From Leptospiraceae bacterium (GTDB taxonomy: Bacteria; Spirochaetota; Leptospiria; Leptospirales; Leptospiraceae): 38,747 nucleotides of DNA. A program made the translations under genes and the position numbers. Below are positions 4,594 through 8,116 of the stretch, in pieces. Position 1 is the stretch's first letter, and every line of letters starts with the position of its first letter. The DNA lies in contig CANGZW010000022.1 of assembly GCA_947458405.1 (NCBI GenBank), forward strand, positions 1 to 38,747. The letters run 5' to 3'. Below the pieces are notes generated by a model, which had not been told where the DNA came from, searched no databases, and saw only the letters and a list, made by a program, of their open reading frames with translations.

Positions 4594-5964
4594 TTATAAA
4601 AATACACTCGCCAAGCCTAAAAAACAAAAGAATCCAAACATATCTGTACAGGCAGTAACGAAAATAGAAGAAGCAATAGCTGGATCTATTTTTAAAAATT
4701 TTAACAATAATGGCACCGAGGAGCCTACGAATCCTGCCAATGTAAGATTTATAAGCATAGCCAAACCTATAACTCCAGAAATATTTATATCTCTTTTTAA
4801 TATATAGGTTACAACAATAGTAACTGTACCAACAACCATTCCATTTATAAAACCTAAAATCATTTCTTTTCTAATGGCAGGCCCCCAATTATAGTCATTA
4901 AGTTCTCCTGTTGCAAGACCCCTAACCATAACCGTTATTGCCTGTGTTCCAGCATTTCCTCCCATCCCGGCTACAATTGGCATGAGTGATGCAAGTACAA
5001 CTATTCTTTGTATTGTATCCTCAAAAACTGTAACTACCGATGTAGTTAGCATTGCTATTGCTAAATTTATAACTAACCAAAGCATTCTACCTTTTACAGA
5101 TTCCCATATCGAAGATGTAAGGGTTTCTTCTTCACTTACCCCTGCCATACGTAGAATATCTTCTGTTGCCTCTTCTTCTACAATATCTAAAACGTCATCA
5201 ACTGTTATACGTCCTATCATTTTGTTATTATCATCTACAACAGGAGCAGAAACTAAATTATATTTTTTAAAAGTTAGAGCAACTTCTTCTTGATCTGTTG
5301 AATAATGAAATGATTGAACAGGTTTTGTTAATTTTTCTACGTTTGTTCTCGGATTAGCAATTAATAAATCTTTAAGATGAACTAATCCTTTTAATATTCC
5401 AAATTTATCAGTAACATATATTACATAAATATCATCAATTTCTTTTGCTATTTTTCTCAACACCTGAATTGCTCTTCTAGCATTGTCCGTATCACGTATT
5501 ACGGCAAATTCTAGATTCATTAGTCTTCCAGCAGAATTTTCTTCAAAATTTAATTGTGTTCTGATTTTATCAGATTCTTCTTTTTCAATTGTGTTGAGTA
5601 ATACTTCAGCCGTATTTTTATCTAAATCAGAAAGTAAGTAGGTTACTTCATCCGATTCTAGATCTTCAATAATTCTTGAAATCTCTTGAAGGCTTAAATT
5701 TTCAGCCAGGATTGATTTTATTTCATCACTTAGCTCTACAAAAATTTTTCTCTGATTTTCAAATTCACATTTTCGAAATAAGTAGATGGAATCATCAAGT
5801 TCCATCCTTTCCATCATCTCAGCAAGGTCAGCAGGGTGCGAAACTAGGATCAACTCAGATACAATTTCCTCCTCTCGATTTTTAATCTTGTCATGAATAC
5901 CATCCCATTCAAGAACAGAGGGGTTATTATGTATATTTTGTTCTTTTTTTCGCACTTCTTTCAT
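4594..5964 (-). CDS. mgtE: Magnesium transporter MgtE
   Basis: An Mg2+-selective channel-type transporter of 456 residues, typical length. Order: N-terminal helical MgtE_N domain (about 30-130) with the repeated phrase LLSDLDKNTAEVLL; two CBS domains (about 135-260) with IVEEEATEDILRMAGVSEEE as the connecting plug region; then five membrane helices. The pore signature MPIVAGMGGNAGTQA and the last-helix TDMFGFFCFLGLA, carrying the conserved Asp near residue 441, are present. It starts 5 bases after the rarA stop, with only a weak ribosome binding site, so it is probably coupled to rarA. No M-box riboswitch is seen upstream; regulation would be by Mg2+ binding to the N and CBS domains. Confidence 0.95.
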   Translation of the reverse strand: MKEVRKKEQNIHNNPSVLEWDGIHDKIKNREEEIVSELILVSHPADLAEMMERMELDDSIYLFRKCEFENQRKIFVELSDEIKSILAENLSLQEISRIIEDLESDEVTYLLSDLDKNTAEVLLNTIEKEESDKIRTQLNFEENSAGRLMNLEFAVIRDTDNARRAIQVLRKIAKEIDDIYVIYVTDKFGILKGLVHLKDLLIANPRTNVEKLTKPVQSFHYSTDQEEVALTFKKYNLVSAPVVDDNNKMIGRITVDDVLDIVEEEATEDILRMAGVSEEETLTSSIWESVKGRMLWLVINLAIAMLTTSVVTVFEDTIQRIVVLASLMPIVAGMGGNAGTQAITVMVRGLATGELNDYNWGPAIRKEMILGFINGMVVGTVTIVVTYILKRDINISGVIGLAMLINLTLAGFVGSSVPLLLKFLKIDPAIASSIFVTACTDMFGFFCFLGLASVFL

Positions 5965-5969
5965 ATTAT

Positions 5970-7232
5970 TTAGTCTTTATAAGATTTTTTACCTGATTTT
6001 TCCCAAATTGACTTTAATCTGTCTTTAAGCAGTTTATCATTTCCCCTGTCAGTTGGGAAATAAAATTGAGGAGGATTCTTTTTTAAATTATCGGGAAAAT
6101 AATTTTCATCTATAAATCCATTTTGAAAATCATGAGGATATTTATAATCTTTGGAGTTTCCCTCTTTTTTGTGAAGAAAAGTGGGTGCATTTCTTAAATG
6201 CAAAGGAATTGAAATTTCAGATCCATAGTTTTTTTGAAATAAATTTGCATCCTCATAGGCTTTATAGGACGCATTGGACTTAGGACAACCTGCTAAAAAT
6301 ACAGTGACCTGTGCAAGAATAATTCTACTTTCCGGCATGCCAATTTTTTGTATTAAATCAAATGCAGAAGATACAAGTTGTAATGCACTGACGGAAGCAT
6401 TTCCTATATCTTCACTGGCAAAGATTGCGAGTCTTCTCATTATAAACAATGGATCTTCTCCACCTTCTAGCATTGCACTCAAATAAAATAGCCCCGCATC
6501 CGGATCGCTTCCCCTGATAGATTTAATAAATGCGGATATAAAATCATAATGGTTATCCCCAGATTTATCAAATTGTATTACCTGTGAGGATAAAATTTCT
6601 TTTGCAGTGCTTAAATTTATATTTGTTTCCCTTGAAAATAATTCTTTAAATAGTTCAATAATACCTATAAACTTTCTAGCATCTCCTCCAGCTGTCTTTA
6701 GAAAATAATTTATAACTTCATTGTCAAAATCTGGAATACTGAGATTATTCTTGATATTATCTAATAATTTTTGTAAGTCATCATTTTCTAATTTTTCCAT
6801 TTTAAATATTTGAGTTCTTGAAAGTAATGCACGATTAATTCTAAATGCAGGATTTTCTGTTGTAGCACCAATTAAAATTAATTTACCAGTTTCTACTGCA
6901 TCCAATAAACTATCCTGTTGAGATGAGGAAAATCTATGTATTTCATCTAAAAAAAGACAAAATGTTCCTGATTTATCTGCTTCATTTATTAAATCCTTAA
7001 TTTCTTTGACCCCACTCGATGTTGCACTCAAAAATTTATAGGATAATTTCCATGTACTACATAAAATTTTAGCAATAGATGTTTTACCGGAGCCGGGTGG
7101 ACCATAGAAAATAATAGAAATAGGATTTTTTAATTTTTGTAAGATAGGAATTAATTTTTTCTGTCCCAAAATTTCATCTAAAGTATTGGGCCTTAAAAGA
7201 TTTGCCAGGGGCTCCTTATTATTAAAGAGCAT
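5970..7232 (-). CDS. rarA: Replication-associated recombination protein A (MgsA/WRNIP1 family ATPase)
   Basis: A clamp-loader-like AAA+ ATPase acting at stalled replication forks and on single-stranded DNA ends. The 420 residues match the family. Visible: N-terminal PLANLLRPNTLDEILGQ, Walker A GPPGSGKTS (about 44-52), Walker B LFLDEIHRF (about 93-101), sensor 1 IGATTENPAF, the C-terminal tetramerisation segment with GGEDPLFIMRRL, and the LRNAPT and YKYPHDF motifs typical of RarA. GGAG lies at good distance before the ATG. The start overlaps the end of the upstream small Cys-rich gene by 11 bases, and mgtE follows 5 bases downstream. Confidence 0.96.
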   Translation of the reverse strand: MLFNNKEPLANLLRPNTLDEILGQKKLIPILQKLKNPISIIFYGPPGSGKTSIAKILCSTWKLSYKFLSATSSGVKEIKDLINEADKSGTFCLFLDEIHRFSSSQQDSLLDAVETGKLILIGATTENPAFRINRALLSRTQIFKMEKLENDDLQKLLDNIKNNLSIPDFDNEVINYFLKTAGGDARKFIGIIELFKELFSRETNINLSTAKEILSSQVIQFDKSGDNHYDFISAFIKSIRGSDPDAGLFYLSAMLEGGEDPLFIMRRLAIFASEDIGNASVSALQLVSSAFDLIQKIGMPESRIILAQVTVFLAGCPKSNASYKAYEDANLFQKNYGSEISIPLHLRNAPTFLHKKEGNSKDYKYPHDFQNGFIDENYFPDNLKKNPPQFYFPTDRGNDKLLKDRLKSIWEKSGKKSYKD

Positions 7233-7461
7233 TTTTTGACTCCAATTCTTTTTTTATATCATCGAGGCAATTTATAATGGTATCATTACAAACTTCACAT
7301 CCCCCATGACAACAGATGAGTGAATTTTCACTTCTCTTTCCCTCTAAAATTTGGGAAATATAAATATTTGCAAATTCAGGAAGAGAATATTTCGATATAT
7401 ATTTTTGAATAATTTCATCTTTACTCGGGGGAAATAGTCTGAGCTCTTCTGAATTTTTCAT
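7222..7461 (-). CDS. Small Cys-rich protein of unknown function, first gene before rarA
   Basis: A 79-residue protein if started at the ATG at 7461 (MKNSEELRLF); the frame stays open to a TTG at 7497, but that TTG coincides with a -35 box, so the ATG is preferred. The C-terminal half has a compact cysteine cluster, CCHGGCEVC followed by NC about eight residues later, suitable for a metal or redox site. No known family is recognised. There is no Shine-Dalgarno sequence; the proposed promoter would start transcription at or within two bases of the ATG, implying a leaderless mRNA. Its stop overlaps rarA by 11 bases, so the two are probably translated together. Confidence 0.7.
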   Translation of the reverse strand: MKNSEELRLFPPSKDEIIQKYISKYSLPEFANIYISQILEGKRSENSLICCHGGCEVCNDTIINCLDDIKKELESKNAL

Positions 7462-7468
7462 AATGAAA

Positions 7469-7497
7469 AAAATATTGATTTTAAAAATCAATGTCAA
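7469..7497 (-). promoter_or_regulatory. Promoter TTGACA-17-TATTTT for the Cys-rich protein/rarA/mgtE run
   Basis: Reading the minus strand, a perfect -35 hexamer TTGACA (7497-7492) is followed by a 17-base spacer and the -10 TATTTT (7474-7469), four of six matches. The ATG at 7461 begins 8 bases past the -10 box, so a normal start site would give a leaderless or nearly leaderless transcript. This fits the absence of any Shine-Dalgarno sequence. Confidence 0.6.
7474..7492. promoter_or_regulatory. Perfect 19-bp palindrome in promoter spacer, candidate operator
   Basis: Plus-strand ATTGATTTTAAAAATCAAT: two 9-base arms around one central base with no mismatch. It fills the spacer between -35 and -10 and overlaps each hexamer by one base. 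A dimeric repressor bound here would block RNA polymerase. The TTGAT/ATCAA half-sites resemble FNR/CRP-type half-sites, but the inner spacing is 7 bases rather than 4, so the regulator is unassigned. Confidence 0.55.
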
Positions 7498-7672
7498 GCT
7501 AATTTAGAGCTTGTATTCTTAAAATATTTATTTAAGAAAAATCAAATAAAAATAAATTCGAAATAGAATAAATAACTTTATTGTATATTTTTCTCTTAGA
7601 TTATTTAATTAATTTTTATATACTAAAAAAGCCTGATATTTTTAGATATTGGTAAAAAAAATTTGGATTAAA

Positions 7673-8116
7673 ATGAAAAATCAAATAGAATTTCCAGAGG
7701 ATATTAATTTTTTTTTCAGTCAAAAAGAATTGGAAAAAATTTTAGTAAAATTATTTAAATTCTTACTTAAAAATAAAAAAGTTTATTTAAGCATAAGGAT
7801 TGTTGATGATAAAAATATACAAGAAATTAACAAACAATCAAGAGGAAAGGATAAATCCACAGATGTACTATCTTTTCCGGCTCCGAGTATTCCCTCCCCA
7901 TTTATGAATTTGGGTGAAATAGTAATATCATACGAAACATTGTTACGTCAGGCAATAGAGATCGGGCACTCAAAAGAAGATGAATTTTATAGGTTACTAG
8001 TGCATGGAGTATTACATTTATTAGGATATGATCATGAAATTTCAGAGAAAGAAGAAAAGAAAATGCAAAAAAAAGAAGATGAATGTCTGGAATATCTATA
8101 TTCGTTTCAAAAATAA
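7673..8116 (+). CDS. ybeY: Endoribonuclease YbeY (rRNA maturation factor)
   Basis: A zinc-dependent endoribonuclease acting in 16S rRNA 3'-end maturation and ribosome quality control. It has 147 residues from the ATG at 7673; a TTG at 7649 is also in frame, but the ATG has a GGAT just upstream and gives the usual N-terminus. The signature [11 protein letters not shown] supplies zinc ligands His111, His115 and His121. STDVLSFP and GEIVIS, both conserved in the family, are at about 62-85. It is followed after 36 bases by the serine hydrolase gene on the same strand. It is divergent from the Cys-rich gene. Confidence 0.95.

Follow-up and report, generated by a model that had tools for sequence, protein, structure and literature searches.

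Leaderless transcription is well described in Leptospira interrogans, which provides the closest counterpart of the promoter considered here. In the transcription start site (TSS) map of this species, most primary TSSs lie 0–10 nt from the translational start, about 440 leaderless mRNAs are mentioned in the discussion, and the dRNA-seq data gave no strong −35/−10 motif besides that of sigma-54 (PMC5243855).

Our analysis was based on a window of 38,747 nucleotides (the whole stretch of DNA that was analyzed), in which a gene of 79 amino acids is followed on the minus strand by rarA, mgtE and a 214-aa lipoprotein-like gene, and is preceded by an intergenic region of 202 nt with 15% GC. The features, in window coordinates, are:

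7492–7497, minus strand: −35 hexamer TTGACA, perfect consensus by sequence
7475–7491, minus strand: 17-nt spacer TTGATTTTTAAAATCAA, a perfect palindrome of 8 pairs and a centre
7474–7492, no strand: perfect 19-bp palindrome ATTGATTTT-T-AAAATCAAT, with 9-base arms and no mismatch
7469–7474, minus strand: −10 hexamer TATTTT, 4/6 match to consensus
7461–7468, minus strand: predicted transcription start, at or a few bases from the A of the ATG
7222–7461, minus strand: small gene, 79 aa, with CCHGGCEVC; belongs to a family restricted to the lineage, in which C50, C51, G54, C55 and C58 are invariant
5970–7232, minus strand: rarA/mgsA, AAA+ ATPase, sharing 11 bases with the 3' end of the small gene (Pfam MgsA_C, 4e-58)
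4594–5964, minus strand: mgtE, Mg2+ transporter, 5 bases after rarA (Pfam MgtE, 4.5e-33)
7664–8116, plus strand: ybeY, divergent neighbour (Pfam YbeY, 5e-39); TTG at 7649 is also a possible start

Probable promoter and predicted start of the small gene

Along the minus strand, TTGACA, the spacer, TATTTT and the 7-nt stretch TTTCATT lead directly to the ATG at 7461–7459, ahead of which there is no Shine-Dalgarno (SD) sequence. An earlier sequence-only reading had reported the two boxes at a distance of 17 bases and the lack of an SD sequence, both of which were confirmed by direct reading, while the 8 bases it gave between the −10 box and the ATG should be corrected to 7. The arrangement is that of a leaderless sigma-70 promoter, with a spacing within 16–18, a −10 box that ends about 5–8 nt from the ATG and the lack of an SD sequence. 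With a match of 10/12, it presents the best sigma-70-like score on the minus strand of the intergenic region.

The true promoter could also lie farther upstream in the AT-rich intergenic DNA and yield an mRNA with an untranslated leader, in which case TTGACA/TATTTT and the palindrome would be incidental. The composition of the region is in line with such an option, as the number of promoter-like matches in the whole intergenic region (13) is that of shuffled sequences (14.2). However, none of the other minus-strand candidates exceeds 8/12, a leadered start would have no SD sequence to rely on, and leaderless-type pairs in the same genome show a spike 5–8 nt before the ATG, as described below. 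We consider an upstream promoter quite improbable.

This spike was characterized in a genome sample of 1.92 Mb of stretches, in which 1,726 ORFs were called mechanically. Exact TTGACA-N16-18-TANNNT pairs occur 31 times in the noncoding DNA of the 1.92 Mb, as compared to 11–17 in Markov simulations. Before genes, 8 of the 14 exact pairs lie 5–8 bases from the ATG (background, 0.4 per 4-base bin), with the distance between the −10 box and the ATG peaking at 6–7 bases, and once a 5/6 match is allowed in the −35 box, 23 pairs are found at 5–8 nt versus a background of 3.7. Certain permuted hexamers likewise occur at 5–8, notably CATTGA (10), which overlaps TTGACA by a two-base shift, and TGTCAA (7). 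For the whole genome, the number of leaderless-type patterns is 27 versus 10 in the reversed control, and most genomes of the taxonomic class, of which 48 were compared, show a comparable excess. Nearly all of the leaderless-type genes lack an SD sequence, and SD-like sequences stand ahead of only about one third of the genes in the genome. Genes that lack an SD sequence and have an exact TTGACA/TANNNT 6–7 bases before the ATG are found at L131:12315-12923, L058:17688-18032, L149:5323, L150:7017, L161:18280, L162:2110 and L119:9719, and the translations of the leaderless-type genes include some that read, by eye, as LexA and ArsR-type.

Given this genome-wide positional class and the fit to the L. 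interrogans map (PMC5243855), the promoter and the leaderless start, taken together, are likely, in support of what the sequence-only reading had proposed. The small-gene promoter is one member of a class that is already known from Leptospira.

The four-cysteine protein and its neighbours

The small Cys-rich gene proposed in that reading is borne out as encoding a conserved protein. The family is real and restricted to the lineage, and its CCxxGCxxC is invariant, with the four cysteines and Gly 54 unchanged across members. Convincing scores were obtained in 4 of the 48 genomes of the taxonomic class, all belonging to one family, and a weak match in G038 (E 0.003) covers profile positions 5–54 in a 389-aa frame. 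Searches of Pfam, NCBIfam and PDB sequences gave nothing significant, no relatives were found in viral contigs, and the AlphaFold model (three helices, pLDDT 75.8, from a four-row alignment) had no Foldseek match of E <1.

The tie of the small gene to rarA is tight, as claimed, since the gene lies directly upstream of rarA in every member found. For mgtE, the claimed tie is only partial: rarA and mgtE are linked in three of the five rarA loci (the window, G004 and G005, with G004 and G005 judged by sequence). G004, the fifth rarA genome, has rarA and mgtE without the small gene, and G001, G006 and G007, three of the eight family genomes, lack the small gene as well as any RarA match at E<=1e-40. 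In the window, mgtE is probably on the same transcript as rarA. The lineage-restricted CCxxGCxxC protein, being tied to rarA, is a possible RarA partner.

The small gene and rarA are kept together in G002, G003 and G005, all of other genera, with RarA 54–60% identical; the named relatives comprise one Leptospirales MAG and two Leptospiraceae MAGs, which suggests that the source genome is from an uncultured member of the Leptospira lineage. In G002 and G003, the small gene overlaps the gene upstream and is preceded by a purine-rich SD-like sequence, while no SD-like sequence is found in the window or in the one relative where the small gene has an intergenic region.

The palindrome in the spacer

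That a palindrome with nine-base arms fills the spacer and touches both boxes was correctly noted in the sequence-only reading. Its outermost A/T pair sits inside the boxes, where TTGACA contributes its last A and TATTTT its first T, so that the spacer itself adds just 8 pairs. By itself, the palindrome is unremarkable. The window contains 4 perfect 9-arm palindromes with a loop of 0 or 1, as compared to 0.8 expected (order-1 Markov), the probability of one such palindrome in a 202-nt intergenic region of the same composition is about 0.056, and 209 kb of noncoding DNA contain 17 palindromes with arms of exactly 9 versus 8–9 expected, a roughly twofold excess. Equally good ones occur elsewhere: two further perfect 19-bp palindromes (2237–2255 and 2300–2318) precede a gene in the same window that reads, by eye, as gatC, the first of them by 9 bases.

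The exact fit to the spacer, on the other hand, is moderately unlikely by chance. The frequency of 17-mers that are perfectly palindromic is 2e-4 in noncoding DNA and 8e-4 if only equally AT-rich 17-mers are counted, and the chance of such a spacer over 27 comparable leaderless promoters is about 0.5–2%, for a fit that was noticed post hoc. Among the 23 leaderless-type promoters of the 1.92-Mb sample, the small-gene promoter is the only one with a palindromic spacer.

Two further elements flank the main palindrome, namely a palindrome of 17 bp that spans the start codon (7454–7470) and, immediately upstream of the −35 box, a stem of 6 bp (7495–7513). Perfect loopless palindromes of 26–36 bp, far above expectation, are found in the noncoding DNA of the same genome at L138:8666-8701, L152:4826-4861, L078:9241-9268 and L081:8830-8855. 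A role of the spacer palindrome as a ybeY terminator was rejected, as ybeY transcription runs away from it.

If the palindrome were a Fur/PerR, FNR/CRP or LexA site, the operon would be part of a regulon for stress or metals. The genome does encode proteins that score above the cut-off for the Fur family (three) and the CRP family (two), and the inner 15-mer of the palindrome, TGATTTTtAAAATCA, has 7-1-7 symmetry. However, the recurrent 7-1-7 Fur/PerR-like palindrome of this genome, which served as a positive control, is TTAGAATnATTCTAA. It has five perfect copies, two of them at contig ends with the downstream gene outside view, and when mismatches are allowed, it occurs 176 times versus 122 in the control, a modest excess. 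A perfect TTAGAATTATTCTAA lies at L095:1501-1515 (G000:C3:64447-64461), about 23 bp before a sodB-like start (superoxide dismutase by eye), and TTAGAATTATTCTAA / TTAGAATnATTCTAA is a candidate Fur/PerR box of the lineage. The spacer palindrome differs from TTAGAATnATTCTAA and does not recur before metal or oxidative genes.

An FNR site needs TTGAT-N4-ATCAA, the LexA1 box of L. interrogans is TTTGN5CAAA, and MerR-type promoters have a spacer of 19–20 bp that holds the dyad. In the palindrome, TTGAT and ATCAA are separated by 7 bases rather than 4, and TTGAT-Nk-ATCAA shows no spacing preference in noncoding DNA. TTTGN5CAAA is absent at the palindrome, as it is before the genome's own recA and lexA, and the spacer of 17 bp is not of the MerR type. 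When the genome was searched for the palindrome with up to two mismatches, the near-copies were mostly inside ORFs, with few before genes, and no regulon emerged; no M-box or other riboswitch was found ahead of the operon. Fur-, CRP- or LexA-type control, and with it the logic of a stress or metal regulon, is not supported, and we regard a site of this kind as very improbable.

The same leaderless promoter might instead carry a single-target operator, at which a homodimeric repressor dedicated to it, similar to ArsR, MarR or TetR, would block RNA polymerase between the boxes. No regulon is expected for a single-target site, and the fit to the spacer favours this option, as does the richness in palindromes of leaderless-type promoters in the taxonomic class. 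The latter was examined in 146 distinct matches, which without exception belong to a different family within the order, using mononucleotide shuffles, which are lenient: palindromes were found in 8 of them at shuffle p<=0.01 (1.5 expected) and in 4 at p of about 0.003 (0.5 expected). Four of five palindromic promoters inspected head an ORF, including, by eye, an ArsR-methyltransferase fusion and ribosomal protein S16, while L180 heads only a 10-codon frame. Perfect palindromes of 24–28 bp lie over the spacer or start at L177:973-1011, L178 (minus strand, G029:C96:2092-2130) and L179 (minus strand, G019:C101:9173-9209), of which the L177 promoter, with ACATATCAAGATATCTTGATATGT in its spacer, would drive the ArsR-methyltransferase fusion. 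As the palindromes exceed the shuffles and the inspected loci include this fusion, operators inside leaderless-type promoters plausibly exist in the taxonomic class.

Against a dedicated repressor, the palindrome is absent before the small gene in G002, G003 and G005, the three relatives in which the gene pair is kept. This absence should be considered weak evidence, as the relatives belong to other genera, more distant than the close relatives to which the sequence-only reading had referred, and the small gene overlaps the upstream gene in two of them, and it is compatible with a function of the palindrome in the source genome. In addition, no second copy was found in the genome search, ahead of a regulator gene or elsewhere, and there is no regulator gene among the examined neighbours around the promoter. 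The palindrome also consists of T/A tracts, which is typical of chance palindromes, and others that are just as perfect precede housekeeping genes such as gatC. We hold the dedicated repressor as a tentative explanation, clearly short of even confidence. More generally, a local operator is possible, given the low chance of the spacer fit and the palindrome excess in leaderless promoters of the taxonomic class, and the palindrome has somewhat less than an even chance of being one. A more specific version, in which an unrecognised redox- or metal-sensing repressor would control a leaderless operon that pairs a new four-cysteine protein with RarA, is unlikely; if true, fork rescue and Mg2+ import would respond to that signal.

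In our preferred explanation, a housekeeping-type sigma-70 promoter would drive a leaderless mRNA that begins at or beside the ATG of the small gene and extends through rarA and probably through mgtE as well. Most likely, the palindrome is confined to the source genome and outside any regulon; it may have arisen by chance in a spacer that is very rich in AT, and we infer that it lacks operator function. We hold this explanation, as a whole, with about even confidence.

Comparison with known systems

The small protein resembles the Pfam family PF09791 (Oxidored-like) through a weak, sub-threshold profile match of three of the four small proteins, which plausibly arises through the Cys cluster. 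With a best E value of 0.17, the match falls short of the curated cut-off, and PF09791 has no match above the cut-off in any of the eight family genomes and none at the small gene in the genome scan. Like the 7-1-7 Fur/PerR box, the palindrome is of odd length with TGA...TCA ends, but it is unlike the genome's own recurrent box and comes without a regulon. As at the ArsR-type promoter of L177, the locus has a leaderless-type gene with a perfect palindrome in the stretch from TTGACA to its ATG. At L177, however, the gene is itself a regulator and the palindrome measures 24 bp, while the small-gene palindrome is tract-like and the small protein is not recognisable as a DNA-binding protein.

The leaderless mRNAs of L. 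interrogans (PMC5243855) are alike in having a −10 box that places the start at or beside the ATG, no SD sequence and many genes of unknown function. The locus differs from them in its perfect TTGACA and in that its start is predicted from sequence. The leaderless promoters of this lineage appear to have a strong TTGACA, a sequence signature that is not mentioned in the part of the published map that we consulted (PMC5243855).
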